DNA from: Aliiglaciecola sp. LCG003
GTDB taxonomy: Bacteria; Pseudomonadota; Gammaproteobacteria; Enterobacterales; Alteromonadaceae
Length of the DNA: 64,000 nucleotides
Assembly (NCBI RefSeq): GCF_030316135.1
Contig: NZ_CP128185.1
Location: 1,984,001 to 2,048,000, forward strand
Direction of reading: 5' to 3'
Shown: one piece after another, positions 1,136 through 43,519 of the stretch
Numbering within the stretch: position 1 is the stretch's first letter
How the letters are laid out: every line of letters starts with the position of its first letter
Notes under the pieces: generated by a model
The model's database searches: none
What the model was told of the DNA's origin: nothing
Seen by the model: the letters and a program-made list of their open reading frames with translations, nothing else
Made by a program: the position numbers and the translations under genes

Positions 1136-1444
1136 TTAAACTGACACTACTGAATTGTCGTCGAAAGATACGGGTGAGGTGATATAAGCATCTGCATGCC
1201 AATCATTTTCCCACTCATGGTCGTCCAACAGGTAACGAAATTGATATTCTGCACCTTTAGGCAAATCAATGGTTGACGAAAACCCACCATTTTTTAATTT
1301 TTTCATCGGTGAAGCAGATAAATTCCATTCATTGAAGTCTCCTACAACACGCACTTTCTGTGCGTTTTTGGCTTCTTCTTTGGATAATTTGAAGGTAACC
1401 TTGCAAACAGGTTTGGATTTTAGATAAGTTTTTTTGAAGCTCAT
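1136..1444 (-). CDS. Small CBM48 (isoamylase early-set) glycogen-binding protein
   Basis: This 102-aa protein is essentially one carbohydrate-binding module of the AMPK-beta/isoamylase N-terminal type. VVGDFNEWN (about residues 33-41), a GGF turn and YQFRYLLDD (about 66-74) are the hallmark strands of CBM48; the DFNxW and FRY/LLD residues normally contact alpha-glucan. There is no catalytic domain and no signal peptide, so a cytoplasmic glycogen-associated or regulatory role is inferred. An in-frame ATG upstream would give 117 aa, but the ATG at 1444 is preceded by a strong AAGGAGG Shine-Dalgarno and starts the conserved MSFKK segment, so I use it. Two HexR-like palindromes lie directly upstream. 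No glycogen synthesis or breakdown genes are nearby. Confidence 0.85.
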   Translation of the reverse strand: MSFKKTYLKSKPVCKVTFKLSKEEAKNAQKVRVVGDFNEWNLSASPMKKLKNGGFSSTIDLPKGAEYQFRYLLDDHEWENDWHADAYITSPVSFDDNSVVSV

Positions 1445-1462
1445 AAGCTCCTCCTTAGTGAT

Positions 1463-1477
1463 GGTAATAATATTACA
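1463..1477. promoter_or_regulatory. HexR-like operator, proximal site before the CBM48 gene
   Basis: GGTAATAATATTACA matches the known HexR pattern TGTAATnnnATTACA at 11 of 12 arm positions. It lies 19-33 bases upstream of the CBM48 start codon at 1444, within the likely 5' untranslated region, which would suit repression. Confidence 0.55.
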
Positions 1478-1524
1478 TGGTGTGGTCAATAATACAGCGT
1501 TTTTAGCCCTGCTGTCATTGTTAA

Positions 1525-1539
1525 TGTAATTAAATTACA
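1525..1539. promoter_or_regulatory. HexR-like operator, distal perfect site before the CBM48 gene
   Basis: TGTAATTAAATTACA is a perfect palindrome and an exact match to the HexR consensus of gammaproteobacteria. It has the same arms as the site at the pyk-hexR intergenic region in this window. It is 81 bases upstream of the CBM48 start and 62 bases (about six helical turns) from the proximal site. The divergent efflux operon starts about 300 bases away on the other side. Confidence 0.65.
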
Positions 1540-35111: not shown

Positions 35112-36548
35112 TTAAGGAACCGTAACTATTTTACATGCATTGGTAGAGCCTATGGTTTCCATTTCATCACCGTAGGTCATCACAAAACAGTCGCCGCTTT
35201 CCAAAATACCTTTATCTTTCAGTACTTTAATCACGTCGAGTTTAAGTTTTCCTGGCTCACTTCCTCTAGAATCAAAGTATAATGGTTTAACGCCACGATA
35301 TAATGCCATTATGTTAAGGGTGCTTTCATGTCGTGAAAATGCATAAATGGGTAAAGACGACGTTATACGAGACATCAATTTAGATGTGTTGCCACTTTCT
35401 GTCAGGGCGACTATAGCTTTAACAGAAGATAAATGGTTTGCCGCATAAACCGCGGAAAGTGCGACAGTTTCGCTAATTGAGGTAAATTGTTCATCGACTC
35501 TATGTTTAGATATTTTTACGCTAGGGTGAGTCTCAGCTCCTTCACAAACCCGAGCCATTGCTTCTACGGTTTCTACCGGATAGTCACCAGCAGCCGTCTC
35601 AGCTGATAGCATGACGGCATCTGTCCCATCTAATACAGCATTTGCCACATCCATTACTTCTGCACGAGTTGGCATAGGGCTATTGATCATCGACTCCATC
35701 ATTTGAGTTGCGGTGATAACCACTCTGTTGAGTTGTCTTGAACGGGCAATCAGTTTCTTTTGCACCCCAACTAATTCTGCGTCACCTATTTCAACACCCA
35801 GATCGCCACGAGCAACCATAACCGCATCAGAGGCTTCAATAATATCATCGATAGCCGCATCACTTGCTACTGTCTCTGCTCTTTCAACTTTGGCACATAT
35901 CAATGCGTTACAACCTGCAGCCACGGCTAGCTTGCGGGCATAGTGCAGATCAGCCCCTGAGCGGGGGAAGGAAACCGCTAAATAATCCACCCCCATAAGC
36001 GCTGCTGTTTTGATATCTTCCTTGTCTTTTTCAGTGAGGGCTTCAGCAGATAAACCACCTCCTAAGCGATTAATCCCTTTATTATTAGACAGCTTACCAC
36101 CAACGGATACTAGGGTATGGACTTTGCGGCCCTCAACGCTAGTAACTTTTAACTGTATGCGTCCATCATCAAGTAACAATAAATCATCTTTGAATACGTC
36201 ATCCGGTAAGGCCTTGTAATCAATGCCTACAGCAGTTTGATTGCCATCGTCCTTACCCATTTCAGCATCAAGAACAAATTTGTCACCAACCTTGAGATGA
36301 ACAGCGCCTTCGGCAAATTTCGAAACGCGGATTTTCGGGCCTTGTAAATCACCGAGTATAGCGATGTATTTACCCAATTTCTTAGCTACTGCACGGACTA
36401 TTTTCGCACGATTGATATGATCTTCAGCTGTACCGTGAGAGAAGTTCATTCGGACAACATTGGTACCCGCTTGAATGATTTGTTCAATTTTTTCAGGAGT
36501 GTTGGTCGCAGGACCAAGGGTGGCGAGTATTTTTGTGCGTCTTAACAT
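35112..36548 (-). CDS. pyk: Pyruvate kinase
   Basis: This converts phosphoenolpyruvate and ADP to pyruvate and ATP. It is 478 aa, PykA-like in length. The active-site signature is present: [11 protein letters not shown] and [15 protein letters not shown] (about 240-254), with MNFSHG near residue 35 and [14 protein letters not shown]. It is read away from hexR, and a perfect HexR operator lies 105 bases before its start, matching the known control of pykA by HexR in this order of bacteria. Confidence 0.97.
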
Positions 36549-36652: not shown

Positions 36653-36667
36653 TGTAATTTTATTACA
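36653..36667. promoter_or_regulatory. HexR operator upstream of pyk
   Basis: TGTAATTTTATTACA has perfect TGTAAT and ATTACA arms. It lies between pyk and hexR, upstream of pyk on the minus strand. Confidence 0.8.
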
Positions 36668-36753: not shown

Positions 36754-37605
36754 TTATTCATTACGTTTTTCGAATCTTGAGCCTCTAAGCGTGTCTTTGA
36801 CACGCTTTAAGTTTTCTCTAAATTTGCCACCCCGTCGAAGTGTGAAGCCAGTAGCCAATATATCGATTAAAGTTAATTGAGCTATTCTTGATGCCATCGG
36901 CATATACATGTCAGTATCCTCGGGCACTTCAAGGGATAATACGAGGTTGCATTCCTTGGCTAAGGGACTATTTTTTGATGTTATACCTACGACAGTGGCA
37001 TCATTTGCCCTGGCAATATGAGCTATTTCAACCAAACTTTTGGTTCGACCTGTATGGGAGATTAGCACCACAACATCGTCTTCATTACTGTTCATACAAC
37101 TCATGCGCTGCATTAGAATATCTTCGAAATAGACCACAGGTACATTAAACCGAAAGAACTTATTTAGGGCATCATGGGCGACAGAGGCGGATGCACCTAG
37201 ACCAAAAAATGAGATTTTCTGTGCCTGAGTAAGCAAATCAACAACGCGATTGATAGCACCAATGTCAACTGATTGGCGGGCGACTTCTAATGAGGCCATA
37301 GTAGATTCGAAGATTTTTTTAGTGTATTCCTCGGGCCCGTCATTTTCCTCTACGTGCCGGTTTACATAAGGTGTGCCATTTGCAAGACTCTGGGCTAAAT
37401 GTAATTTGAAATCAGGAAAGCCTTTGGTATCGAGGCGGCGGCAGAATCGATTTACGGTCGGTTCACTGACATCTGACATTTTGGCCAATGTCGCTATACT
37501 AGAGTGGATGGCAGTTTGCGGGTTGTCCAAAATCACATCAGCAACTTTTCTTTCAGACTTACTAAAGGCTGCTTTATTTTGGGTTATTTTTTCAAGTATA
37601 TTCAT
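36754..37605 (-). CDS. hexR: HexR, RpiR/MurR-family transcriptional regulator
   Basis: HexR controls central carbon genes and is released from DNA by 2-keto-3-deoxy-6-phosphogluconate, the Entner-Doudoroff intermediate. It is 283 aa from the ATG at 37605 (a TTG two codons upstream is less likely). The N-terminal RpiR helix-turn-helix (SIATLAKMSDVSEPTVNRFCRRL, in pieces, about 38-60) is followed by a SIS sugar-phosphate domain (FFGLGASASVAHDA near 135; SHTGRTKSLVEIA near 185). It is divergent from zwf. The location and target sites make the assignment firm. Confidence 0.95.
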   Translation of the reverse strand: MNILEKITQNKAAFSKSERKVADVILDNPQTAIHSSIATLAKMSDVSEPTVNRFCRRLDTKGFPDFKLHLAQSLANGTPYVNRHVEENDGPEEYTKKIFESTMASLEVARQSVDIGAINRVVDLLTQAQKISFFGLGASASVAHDALNKFFRFNVPVVYFEDILMQRMSCMNSNEDDVVVLISHTGRTKSLVEIAHIARANDATVVGITSKNSPLAKECNLVLSLEVPEDTDMYMPMASRIAQLTLIDILATGFTLRRGGKFRENLKRVKDTLRGSRFEKRNE

Positions 37606-37774
37606 GGGCAAAAAATCTTATTGTTTTTTATCAACTCTCGCCAATAACATGGTTGGGGAGGCAAATTCGATGTATAAACAATTGTTGTAATTTTTTAACG
37701 AATTAGCCAGCATTTTTTCTATGCTTTGGTAAAATAACTGTTAACAAGATACACAGATAGATTACTTAAAAAGT

Positions 37775-37889: not shown

Positions 37890-39380
37890 ATGGTGTTGGA
37901 AAATTCGTTCGAACCCTGCGACTTCGTCCTTTTTGGCACAAAAGGGGACTTAGCAAGACGCAAGTTACTTCCTTCTCTTTATCAGTTGGAAAAAGCCAAT
38001 TTGGTGCATGCTGATACACGGATCATTGGTGTGGCTAGACAAGAAATCAGTCAAGAAGACTATGTGACATTGGTCAAAGAGAACATTGTATCCTTTGGTG
38101 GCGAAGAATTATGCGAAGACACGTGGCAACGTTTCTCTGCTAAATTGGATTATGTCTGCGTCGATATGAAAGATATCGACAGTTACGATGTGTTCAAAGA
38201 GCATGTAAATAAAACCCGCACTATGGTTTGTTATCTTGCGACACCGCCATCTATCTTTGGCGATATTTGTCGTGGTCTAAATGCAGCGGGCATAATTGAT
38301 CCTACGGTTAGAGTGGTGCTAGAGAAGCCCCTTGGACATGACTTAGCCTCATCTAAAGTCATCAACAATCAAGTGGCTGAGTTTTTCAGCGAACGACAGA
38401 TCTATCGTATCGATCATTATCTTGGTAAAGAAACGGTTCTCAACCTCATTGCTTTGCGCTTTGCAAATTCGATTTTTGCGACCAATTGGGATCACAATTG
38501 TATTGACCATGTGCAAATTTCCGTTGCTGAGTCGGTTGGAATAGAAGGTCGCTGGGGATATTTTGATGAAGCAGGTCAAATGCGTGACATGGTCCAAAAC
38601 CACTTACTGCAAATACTCACTCTTATTGCCATGGAACCCCCAGCAATCCTTGATGCAGACAGTATTCGTGATGAAAAACTAAAAGTACTCAAGGCCTTAC
38701 GCCCGATTACGCCAGCGAATGTAGAGAGTGATACTGTCCGCGGTCAATACATTAGCGGTTTTGTTAAAGGCAAAGAAGTGCCAGGGTATTTAGAAGAAGA
38801 AGATGCCAATACCCAATCCAAGACCGAAACCTTTGTTTCGCTGAAAGTTCACATCGATAACTGGCGTTGGGCAGGGGTACCTTTCTACTTAAGAACCGGT
38901 AAACGTCTGCCGAGTAAAACCAGTGAAGTGGTGATTTTCTTCAAACGCCAGCCACATAATTTATTTGGTGAAAGTTTTGCTCAATTACCACCGAATAAAC
39001 TCACCATCAGGCTTCAACCTGATGAAGGGGTTGAAGTCACTGTTATGAACAAAGTCCCGGGCTTGACGGCCGGCGGCGCAATGGACCTTCAAAAGTCAAA
39101 GCTGAATTTAAGTTTTTCTGAAGAATTTAAAGATGCCCGTATAGCCGATGCCTATGAAAAGCTGTTATTGGAAGTGATGAAAGGCAATCAATCACTATTT
39201 GTAAGACGAGATGAAGTAGAACAAGCTTGGACGTGGGTTGATGGCATATTCCGCGCATGGGGAGCGAACAACAATACGCCAGAGCCTTATCAAGCTGGTA
39301 CCTGGGGTCCAGTAGCATCAATTGCTATGATGGCACGTGACAACCGAGCGTGGTATGAATCAAGAATAGGGAAGAAGTAA
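37890..39380 (+). CDS. zwf: Glucose-6-phosphate 1-dehydrogenase
   Basis: This oxidises glucose 6-phosphate to 6-phosphogluconolactone, making NADPH. It is 496 aa. The nucleotide-binding segment FGTKGDLARRKLLPSLYQL (about 14-32) and the active-site motif RIDHYLGKE (about 173-181) are intact. It heads zwf-pgl-edd-glk-eda, and its stop abuts the pgl ATG directly, so translation is likely coupled. Confidence 0.98.
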   Translation: MVLENSFEPCDFVLFGTKGDLARRKLLPSLYQLEKANLVHADTRIIGVARQEISQEDYVTLVKENIVSFGGEELCEDTWQRFSAKLDYVCVDMKDIDSYDVFKEHVNKTRTMVCYLATPPSIFGDICRGLNAAGIIDPTVRVVLEKPLGHDLASSKVINNQVAEFFSERQIYRIDHYLGKETVLNLIALRFANSIFATNWDHNCIDHVQISVAESVGIEGRWGYFDEAGQMRDMVQNHLLQILTLIAMEPPAILDADSIRDEKLKVLKALRPITPANVESDTVRGQYISGFVKGKEVPGYLEEEDANTQSKTETFVSLKVHIDNWRWAGVPFYLRTGKRLPSKTSEVVIFFKRQPHNLFGESFAQLPPNKLTIRLQPDEGVEVTVMNKVPGLTAGGAMDLQKSKLNLSFSEEFKDARIADAYEKLLLEVMKGNQSLFVRRDEVEQAWTWVDGIFRAWGANNNTPEPYQAGTWGPVASIAMMARDNRAWYESRIGKK

Positions 39381-40073
39381 ATGGCATTGGTAGAAAATAT
39401 TTTTGATTCGGTCGATCAATTGAATGTCAATTTCGCCAATAAAATAGCCACTATTCTGAGTGCCGGAATTGAGCAAAATGGTCGCGCTAGCTTGGTGGTT
39501 TCAGGAGGTCGAACCCCTGCTGCTATGTTCAATATATTGTCCCACCAGGACATTCAGTGGCAGAAGGTTGATATCACTCTTGCAGATGAGCGCTGGGTTG
39601 ATAGTGATGATGCCGCCAGCAATGCCGCTATGGTGGCAAGGGAGTTATTAGTCAATAATGCTAAAGCAGCTAACTTTATTGGTCTTAAAACTGCGCATAA
39701 AGATGCTAACGATGGCGTAGCTATTTGTGAAGCGAATTTGCAGAAGATCAAAACCCCTTTTGACGTACTTATTCTCGGCATGGGCGAAGATGGGCATACA
39801 GCCTCTTTATTTCCTTGTTCAGCGCAAATAAGAGCAGGTTTAGATACCACTGCAAGCGCCAATTATATTGCAGTTCAACCCACCACAGCGCCTAATCAGA
39901 GAATGTCATTAACATTGAAATCTATATTGGCGAGTGAAAATATATTTTTGCACCTTACCGGCGAAGGTAAGAAGCGTGTACTCGATCAAGCCATGGCAAG
40001 TGATGACGCATTAGAAATGCCAATTCGTGCTGTACTTAACAACGCAAGCGTCGCGCTATATTGGGCTGCGTAG
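39381..40073 (+). CDS. pgl: 6-phosphogluconolactonase
   Basis: This 230-aa enzyme hydrolyses 6-phosphogluconolactone to 6-phosphogluconate. Motifs are [12 protein letters not shown] (about 34-45), LADERWV (about 66-72) and [14 protein letters not shown] (about 132-145). It starts one base after zwf ends and stops nine bases before the edd start codon. Confidence 0.97.
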
Positions 40074-40081
40074 GAGAAAAT

Positions 40082-41917
40082 ATGAATTCAGTTATTCAAG
40101 AAGTAACGAATCGGATCATTGAACGAAGTCGAAAGTCTCGTCAACAGTATCTTGATAAAATCGAAACGGCAAGACGAAACGGACCTCACCGGGGCGTACT
40201 TTCTTGTGGTAATTTGGCTCATGGTTTTGCCGCTTGTAGTACAGAAGAAAAAACCGATTTAACGAGTTTAGTAAAATCCAATATAGCTATAGTTTCTTCA
40301 TACAACGATATGTTATCAGCTCATCAGCCATATGAGCATTATCCGGCCATAATGAAACAAGCCATCAAAGACGTTGGCGGTGTGGCACAATTTGCCGGCG
40401 GCGTTCCAGCGATGTGTGACGGCGTCACTCAAGGTAACCCTGGTATGGATTTGAGTTTAATGAGTCGCGACGTCATTGCCCTATCTGCAGCTGTGGGTTT
40501 ATCCCACAACATGTTTGATGGTGCGTTAATGCTGGGTATCTGTGACAAAATAGTTCCAGGGTTGTTGATCGGTGCATTAAGTTTTGGTCATTTGCCAACG
40601 GTTTTTGTCCCAGCCGGCCCTATGCCTTCAGGTCTACCGAATAAAGAAAAAGCTCGGGTCCGTCAAGCTTATGCCCAAGGTAAAGTGGGTCGAAAAGAGT
40701 TACTAGAAGCAGAGTCAAAGAGCTATCACTCTGCAGGAACCTGCACATTTTATGGTACTGCTAACAGTAACCAGTTAGTCGTTGAGGTTATGGGACTGCA
40801 TTTACCTGGATCATCGTTCGTCAATCCGGGCACTGAATTGCGTGATGCCCTGACAAAAGCCGCATCTAGGCAAGTAACTCGCTTAACCGACTTAGGTGAT
40901 AACTACACGCCAATTGGGCACATTGTCGATGCAAAATCTATTGTCAATGGCTTGGTCGCATTATTAGCTACCGGCGGTTCGACCAATCACACCATGCATT
41001 TAGTCGCCGTTGCCCGAGCAGCAGGCTACGAAATTAATTGGGATGATTTTTCGGATATTTCTAATGCGGTTCCTCTGCTAACTCGAATCTATCCCAATGG
41101 CTCAGCGGATATTAACCATTTCACTGCCGCAGGCGGCATGGCCATGCTGTTTAAAGAATTGCTAGGTGCAGGTTTACTGCATAATGACGTTAAAACAATC
41201 TGTGGTGATGGTTTAGAACGTTACACCCAAGAACCCTTTATGCAAGATGGTGAATTAAGCTGGCGCGATGGTCCTAAAGAAAGTTTCGACACTGATGTGC
41301 TCGCAACGGTTGCTAAACCTTTCAAACCCGATGGCGGATTGTCGGTACTGCACGGTAATCTAGGGCGGGCAGTGATGAAAACCTCTGCACTTCGAGAAAC
41401 TCATTGTCGCATTAAAGCTCCCGCAGTGGTCTTTGAAGATCAATTCGAGCTGGCTGATGCGTTTAAAGCCGGTGACTTGGATAAAGACTGTATCGTTGTG
41501 GTGCGCTTTCAAGGACCGGCTGCCATTGGTATGCCTGAACTTCACAGTTTAACGCCGCCGCTAGGGGTGCTTCAAGATAAAGGCTTTAAAGTGGCTTTGG
41601 TTACTGACGGTAGAATGTCGGGCGCGTCTGGAAAAGTTCCAGCCGCCATCCACGTCACCCCTGAAGCTTATCATGGTGGATTGCTGGCTAAAGTTAACAC
41701 CGGCGACATCATTGAAATCAACACTGAAACCGGTGAAATGTGTTTGCATGTTGATAATGACGTATTGGCCCAAAGGAAACCTAGGAAGGCCAACACAGAT
41801 AAGCATCAAATCGGTATGGGACGAGAAATGTTTGCCGGTATGCGTAACTCGTTAACCGGGGCCGAGCAGGGAGCCTGTTCACTGTTTGCTGGTCAGGGGA
41901 ATCAACATGACGGTTAA
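40082..41917 (+). CDS. edd: Phosphogluconate dehydratase
   Basis: This Fe-S dehydratase of the IlvD/Edd family turns 6-phosphogluconate into KDPG. The start at 40082 has GGAG upstream; a longer frame overlapping pgl is unlikely. It is 611 aa. Cluster cysteines are in [18 protein letters not shown] and [38 protein letters not shown] near the C-terminus (in pieces) is the usual closing signature. The gene overlaps glk by 11 bases. Confidence 0.97.
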
Positions 41918-42860
41918 ATTCGTTGCTGATGTAGGTGGTACTAATATTCGTCTAGCCACAGTTGATAGTGGTGGTTTGACTCGAGTCAAAAAATATTTAT
42001 GTGATGATTTTGAAAATATTGATGTTGCCATTCAACATTACTTTTCTGAGCATCCTGACCTAGTTTACGCCTATGGATGTATTGCAATTGCATGTCCTGT
42101 ACAAGGTGATTGGGTGAAGATGACTAATCACAGTTGGGAGTTTTCAATTGAGCATTTAAGCAAAACCCTCGGTTTAAAGTGGTTGGGGGTGATCAATGAC
42201 TTTACCTCGGTCGCATTTTCGTTGCCCGGGCTAAACGATGGTCAAAAAATACAAGTAGGCCCTGGTACAGTAAAACCTCAGGGAAATATCGCGGTATTCG
42301 GGCCAGGTACTGGACTCGGCGTTGAACATTTAACTTTTACCGATAAAGGCTGGAAGGCGTTAGATGGTGAAGGTGGACATGTGGATTTTGCTGCTCAAGA
42401 TGAAAATGAGTTCGCTATTTGGCATTACCTGAAGAAAAAATTAGGACATGTATCAGCCGAAGAAGTGCTATCTGGTCGCGGCATCGTGCATATTTATGAA
42501 GGTTTGGCAGAACATAATCAACAAGCACCAGTGTTGAATGATCCCGCCGTAATAACCGAAAAAGCGCTGAATAAAGAATGTGAATTGTGTATGGCAACTT
42601 TGCAGCAGTTTTGCAAAATTATGGGCAGTTTTGCCGGTAACTTAGCACTAAATTTGGCGACTACCGGAGGCGTATACATCGGTGGTGGAATTGCTGCTAG
42701 ATTTGTTGATTTTATCAAGACCAGTGATTTTCGTGCTCGCTTTGAAGATAAAGGTCGGTTTAGACATTACGTCGCCAATATTCCTACGTTCATTATAACT
42801 GAGCCTGATCATGGCTTGCTAGGCGCTGCCGCCTACCTAGAATTAAATTACAAGGGTTAA
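41907..42860 (+). CDS. glk: Glucokinase
   Basis: This ATP-dependent glucokinase of the E. coli Glk type has 317 aa from the ATG at 41907, with AGGGGA upstream. [11 protein letters not shown] (about 6-16) is the phosphate motif. VINDFTSVA and [12 protein letters not shown] follow, then DGEGGHVDF with substrate-contacting residues. Its first 11 bases lie inside the end of edd. Inclusion within the operon means free glucose enters the Entner-Doudoroff route under the same control. Confidence 0.95.
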
Positions 42861-42865
42861 AAAAT

Positions 42866-43519
42866 ATGTCATCAAATTGGAAAGTGACTTCAGAACAGGT
42901 ATTCAAGCAAGGTCCTGTAGTTCCTGTACTCGTAATCAAAGATGTGGCCCATGCAGTGCCTTTAGCCAAAGCATTGATTAAGGGTGGTATTAACGTGCTT
43001 GAAGTTACCTTGCGCTCAGACGCTGCCCTTGAAGCCATTCGTAAGATTGCAGATGAAGTGCCTGAAGCTATGATTGGTGCGGGGACAGTGACTAATGAAG
43101 AACAACTTAAGCAGGTTGTAGCTGCAGGCGCGAAGTTTGCCATCAGTCCAGGATTGACCACTAGCCTGTTGGAAGCCGGAAATCGGTCAAGTGTTTGTTT
43201 GATACCTGGGATTTCGTCTATTTCTGAACTTATGCAAGGCTTAGATTTAGGTTATACCCATTTTAAATTTTTCCCTGCTGAGGCTTCAGGCGGGATAAAG
43301 GCCCTTAAGTCTATCGGCGGCCCTTTCCCAGACGTTATTTTTTGTCCTACAGGTGGAATAGGTCCTAACAACTACCTAGATTATTTGGCGCTGCCAAATG
43401 TGATTTGTGCAGGAGGCTCTTGGTTAGCACCTGATGATGCCGTCATAGCAGGCGACTGGGATAGAATAACCGAATTGGCCAAGCAAGCTGTACTTGGAGC
43501 GGCTTCGTTAGAAAAATAA
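42866..43519 (+). CDS. eda: KDPG aldolase
   Basis: This 217-aa class I aldolase splits 2-keto-3-deoxy-6-phosphogluconate into pyruvate and glyceraldehyde 3-phosphate. [15 protein letters not shown] with the catalytic Glu (about 45-59), [11 protein letters not shown] and the Schiff-base Lys in [14 protein letters not shown] (about 129-142) are all present. It follows glk by five bases and ends the operon. Confidence 0.97.

Follow-up and report, generated by a model that had tools for sequence, protein, structure and literature searches.

In the 64,000-nucleotide window of the marine bacterium Aliiglaciecola sp. LCG003 analysed here, a gene for a stand-alone CBM48 protein is preceded by two palindromes of the HexR type, and hexR itself lies in the same window beside its classic targets. 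By its layout the CBM48 gene is monocistronic, converging with etfA and diverging from a membrane-fusion/RND operon. The relevant features are as follows, operators being given without strand:

1136–1444, minus strand: stand-alone CBM48 gene, 102 residues (CBM_48, 5.8e-9; AMPK1_CBM, 6.7e-7)
1448–1454, minus strand: Shine-Dalgarno-like GGAGGAG, kept with little or no change across the genus alignment
1463–1477: inner operator of the HexR type, matching 14/15; roughly +6 to +20 relative to the predicted start
1489–1518, minus strand: predicted sigma-70 promoter, ATGACA-18 bp-TATTAT, 10/12 matches
1525–1539: outer operator of the HexR type, a perfect match; roughly −57 to −43 relative to the predicted start
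35112–36548, minus strand: pyk, a classic HexR target
36653–36667: perfect HexR-type box before pyk
36754–37611, minus strand: hexR (NF008451, 531 bits against a cut-off of 296); the listed reading frame starts at TTG, and ATG is its third codon
37775–37789: perfect HexR-type box between hexR and zwf
37890–43519, plus strand: zwf-pgl-edd-glk-eda, the operon making and using KDPG

Motif matching confirmed both palindromes of the original prediction: the outer box, TGTAATTAAATTACA, fits the HexR-type consensus perfectly, and the inner box, GGTAATAATATTACA, fits 11 of the 12 arm bases and 14 of the 15 positions of the full consensus. Their claimed separation of six helical turns corresponds to a start-to-start distance of 62 bp, or 5.9 turns of 10.5 bp. 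The boxes do lie directly upstream of the CBM48 gene, 19–81 bp from its start, and the perfect boxes at pyk and hexR/zwf bear out the presence of hexR and its targets in the window. Across the 4.41 Mb single-contig genome we found six perfect TGTARTWWWAYTACA sites, the outer box among them, versus none for a reversed control pattern. When one mismatch was permitted there were 13 sites versus 14 for the control, so the inner box has no significance taken alone; it gains significance from standing beside a perfect site, from the conserved 62-bp spacing and from its conservation.

The sigma-70-like match (1518–1489) sits between the two boxes. Since three promoter-like sites were found where 2.5 were expected, this match is weak by itself. 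With +1 taken seven bases past the −10 hexamer, at approximately 1482, the outer box lies at about −50 and the inner box at about +13. Among the 38 orthologous upstream regions with an inner box of at least 13/15 within 60 bp of CBM48, the best −10-like hexamer ends 11–12 bp before that box in 19, which places the inner box just after the predicted start.

Conservation upstream of CBM48 orthologues

A CBM48 orthologue (E ≤1e-10) was present in 168 of 295 genomes of the family; 131 of these 168 were examined and two were dropped, leaving 129 upstream regions. A site of at least 14/15 was found within 150 bp of the gene in 41 of the 129, 18 of them perfect, versus a mean of 0.235 and a maximum of 2 in 200 dinucleotide shuffles that ignore kinship, and versus real-DNA controls of 4 in the interval −420 to −271, 0 within the gene and 6 downstream. 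Conservation before orthologues was the test named beforehand, and the prediction withstood it in 14 of the 31 genera, though 17, including g17, g45 and g50, have no site of this quality within 150 bp. In the Aliiglaciecola genus itself, all eight upstream regions of testable length carry at least one site of at least 14/15, and six of the eight carry both boxes (at least 13/15) 62 bp apart. Every examined member has a site in genera g14 (five members), g33 (three), g11 (three) and g51 (two), as does the single examined member of each of g6, g16, g37 and g49, while in g24 the site is missing from 12 of 14 upstream regions. HexR is nevertheless present in g17, g45 and g50, where the CBM48 site is absent, and in g24, where only 2 of 14 have it. 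Genera lacking HexR, which would serve as a natural control, are nearly missing from the set; the only group noticed without a strong HexR match among the examined orthologues, g18, has a site in neither of its two upstream regions, too few to count.

The spacing is also conserved. With 55 directional tests per offset, a second box of at least 12/15 was found 5 times at 61 bp, 11 times at 62 bp and 6 times at 63 bp, compared with a mean of 0.24 at other offsets, where the next highest count was 4, at 72 bp. Named carriers include Aliiglaciecola lipolytica, Bowmanella denitrificans, Aestuariibacter salexigens and halophilus, Planctobacterium marinum, Alteromonas salexigens and Marisediminitalea aggregata. 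Outside the family, the CBM48 upstream regions checked in Thiothrix, a Desulfobacteraceae metagenome-assembled genome, Lutibacter and Roseivirga had no site; in all, 35 of 80 named loci were checked.

The stand-alone CBM48 protein

The protein scores 36.6 bits against PF02922 (cut-off 22.4) and 29.9 bits against PF16561 (cut-off 26.8), and its nearest named relatives belong to Aliiglaciecola, at 80–82% identity. Its AlphaFold model (pLDDT 93.6) has the CBM48 beta-sandwich fold, as predicted structures go, and VIA-align superposed 80 residues on the AMPK beta1 carbohydrate-binding module (1z0m) with a Z score of 12.0 and an rmsd of 1.6, a match equalled by amylase CBM48 domains and nearly so by branching enzyme. 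Trp40, Arg70, Trp78 and Asn97 align with the AMPK beta1 sequence, and in alignment A2 the two tryptophans are invariant and Arg70 and Asn97 are conserved at 90% or more. The AMPK counterparts of these four residues are sugar contacts, and by this alignment the carbohydrate-contact residues of CBM48 are present in the protein. The likeness to the AMPK beta-subunit glycogen-binding domain (1Z0N, 1Z0M) extends to the fold and to these aligned residues, whereas the protein here is bacterial, free-standing and 102 residues long, and its chain includes no kinase portion.

PROTEIN TARGETING TO STARCH of plants is a non-catalytic CBM48 protein of storage-glucan metabolism. In contrast, the 102 residues of the protein studied here are taken up by the CBM48 module and leave no space for a partner-binding part, and the two are not known to share any regulation. 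Several bacterial phyla have free-standing CBM48 proteins, for which our literature search found no function. Among 59 genomes, 29 have both CBM48 and glgA, 2 have CBM48 only, 7 have glgA only and 21 have neither (Fisher p = 4e-8, kinship ignored). In distant genera the CBM48 gene adjoins malQ, glgX or glgC, and at some of those loci HexR-like boxes lie about 200–350 bp upstream, in the same gap. The protein is likely a small non-catalytic alpha-glucan binder, serving as a glycogen adaptor or as a modulator of the glycogen surface.

Separately, in g8 and g38 (L142, L146, L147 and L149) two HexR-like boxes approximately 101–102 bp apart were observed at about −235 to −353 of CBM48; in L142 and L146 these lie between CBM48 and malQ, with glgX on the other side of CBM48, another layout of the same elements.

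HexR-type boxes at glgP, Spot 42 and other loci

Further boxes were located elsewhere in the genome:

2976472–2976486 (L006 1501–1515): HexR-type box before glgP; glgP loci are L152–L181
14249–14263 (L001 1501–1515): perfect HexR-type box in the polA-engB gap, ahead of a Spot 42-like small RNA
L001 1457–1390, minus strand: the Spot 42-like small RNA; family loci are L281–L305
767426 and 767601 (L007 1501 and 1676): box pair before a DUF3718-type gene

Among the best-matching 30 of the 46 glgP matches listed, 20 upstream regions have a site of at least 14/15 within 250 bp, versus 0.11 in shuffles, and box pairs (at least 13/15) are spaced by 113 bp in five genomes, by 108–116 bp in four more and by 62 bp in three others. 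The exact 15-base 5′ end of Spot 42 was found in 25 of 59 genomes, and at these 25 loci a box starting at −56 to −60 reaches at least 14/15 in 19 and at least 13/15 in 24; in the genome studied here it starts at −58 and sits at about −51. A match to Rfam RF00021 exceeded the gathering cut-off at one of five Spot 42 loci and fell below it with E ≤5e-7 at three more; the Rfam search returned no RF00021 match at the locus of our own genome. Our literature search turned up no account of HexR controlling Spot 42, HexR with Spot 42 returning Neisseria papers only. The boxes before glgP and Spot 42, a side finding, may matter more than the CBM48 member.

Two other arrangements were observed. A pair of HexR-type boxes approximately 175 bp apart precedes the gene for a small, secreted-looking DUF3718-type protein in this genome and in several members of the genus (L262, L271, L273, L275, L312 and L315); the gene adjoins ilvH wherever ilvH was seen. 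A one-mismatch box (2510561–2510575; L012 1501–1515) lies 34 bp before gapA, which is divergent from malQ-glgB-glgX.

A model of CBM48 regulation and its alternatives

The CBM48 promoter is probably repressed by HexR through the two operators that flank it, KDPG lifting that repression. When KDPG is scarce, HexR at about −50 and +13, with six turns between the two sites and both on one DNA face, would block the promoter as a roadblock, possibly by bridging across RNA polymerase; what suggests bridging is the phase and spacing of the boxes only, and the literature examined, in the portions consulted, describes no looping mode for HexR. With sugar flowing through the Entner-Doudoroff route, KDPG would release HexR, and the CBM48 protein would then be made together with zwf-pgl-edd-glk-eda and pyk and deployed with glycogen phosphorylase (glgP), which has the same operators. 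The analysis establishes the sites, their conservation and spacing, the identity of the gene from sequence models and its predicted fold; from these we infer HexR binding, the sign of the regulation, the KDPG effect, glycogen binding and the adaptor role. In published work HexR responds to KDPG (PMC5507952, as excerpted). According to the available part of one Vibrio study (PMC11906056), HexR sites located downstream of a promoter are considered repressing and those located upstream activating. Since the box kept nearest the gene is usually the one just downstream of the predicted start, repression is the likeliest sign.

That sign could be reversed, as the outer box sits in the position expected of a HexR activator site and Vibrio glgX is activated by HexR. 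Under this unlikely alternative the upstream box, at about −50, would recruit RNA polymerase so that CBM48 is made at low KDPG, and the inner box would only tune expression. The outer box is the perfect one here, the Spot 42 site is placed likewise, and in Vibrio HexR acts positively on glgX from an upstream site, by the same partial account (PMC11906056). Against activation, most loci with one remaining box have kept the inner one, downstream in the repressing position, with exceptions that keep the outer box alone (for example L023, L034, L067 and L074).

Another regulator with a similar palindrome, such as a second RpiR-family protein, is very unlikely to own the boxes, even though the genome encodes a second match to the HexR model, since the same type of box stands before hexR/zwf, pyk and ppsA in this genome and its genus, and the Vibrio HexR consensus as given in the excerpted paper (PMC11906056) is identical, letter for letter, to the outer box. 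The six perfect sites of the genome lie at the Spot 42 slot in the polA-engB gap, ppsR/ppsA, CBM48, pyk, hexR/zwf and glgP. Nine genomes of the genus hold 40 perfect sites versus 7 for the reversed pattern, and 39 of the 40 fall at six loci: hexR/pyk/zwf, ppsR/ppsA, glgP, the Spot 42 slot, the DUF3718 gene and CBM48. Sites were assigned by tblastn on fetched stretches, except that those hexR/pyk/zwf sites whose stretches were not fetched were assigned by hexR coordinates, the CBM48 site in G007 by the CBM48 coordinate and the second site of the DUF3718 pair in G004 by adjacency; one perfect site (L316) was left without an assignment. This near confinement of the perfect motif to HexR-type loci in the genus supports HexR as its natural owner.

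The boxes can hardly serve the divergent membrane-fusion/RND operon (1808 onward) rather than CBM48. They do lie in the intergenic region common to both, and a promoter-like match at 1740–1768 points toward that operon, but its first gene is about 270 bp away from them. Moreover, the membrane-fusion gene is absent from the fetched flank at 21 of the 41 site-bearing loci and present at 39 loci that have no site, so the boxes follow CBM48, and on this comparison of synteny with site presence the efflux operon was rejected as their target. That the palindromes arose by chance in AT-rich DNA is barely conceivable, for although sites allowing one mismatch occur in the genome no more often than the reversed pattern does, conservation and fixed spacing speak against chance, and the shuffles and real-DNA controls led to its rejection.

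The preferred reading, repression from both sides of the promoter, shares with the HexR regulon of Shewanella and Vibrio the regulator family, the consensus and the core targets zwf, edd, eda, pykA and glk (PMC3223726, PMC5343134, PMC11906056). It differs from those accounts, in the portions consulted, in its stand-alone CBM48 and glgP targets and in operators 62 bp apart around a promoter. Our literature search likewise found neither CBM48 nor glgP as a HexR target, in line with the claim that a lone CBM48 gene is an undescribed one; a prior listing is possible in RegPrecise or Leyn et al. 2011, which lay outside its scope. In this genome the proposed link between HexR and glycogen would be wider than foreseen, reaching glgP too, but it is not new: glgX of Vibrio parahaemolyticus is in print as a member of the HexR regulon, on the evidence of the excerpted text (PMC11906056). 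CBM48 would therefore be a new member of the HexR regulon and not a new type of link.

A broader and more doubtful reading is that HexR of the Alteromonadaceae might act as a glycogen and small-RNA switch, in which KDPG would control glgP, a free CBM48 adaptor and Spot 42 through phased, promoter-bridging operator pairs; tentatively, these pairs would be spaced by 62 bp at CBM48 and some glgP genes and by about 113 bp at other glgP genes. The conserved regulator site hints at when, and alongside which pathway, a free-standing CBM48 protein is produced. That many relatives conserve the sites suggests, from sequence comparison, joint switching of glycogen handling and the main sugar-burning route, and if these operators also govern glgP and Spot 42, HexR would link the use of glycogen and regulation by a small RNA to flux through the Entner-Doudoroff route.
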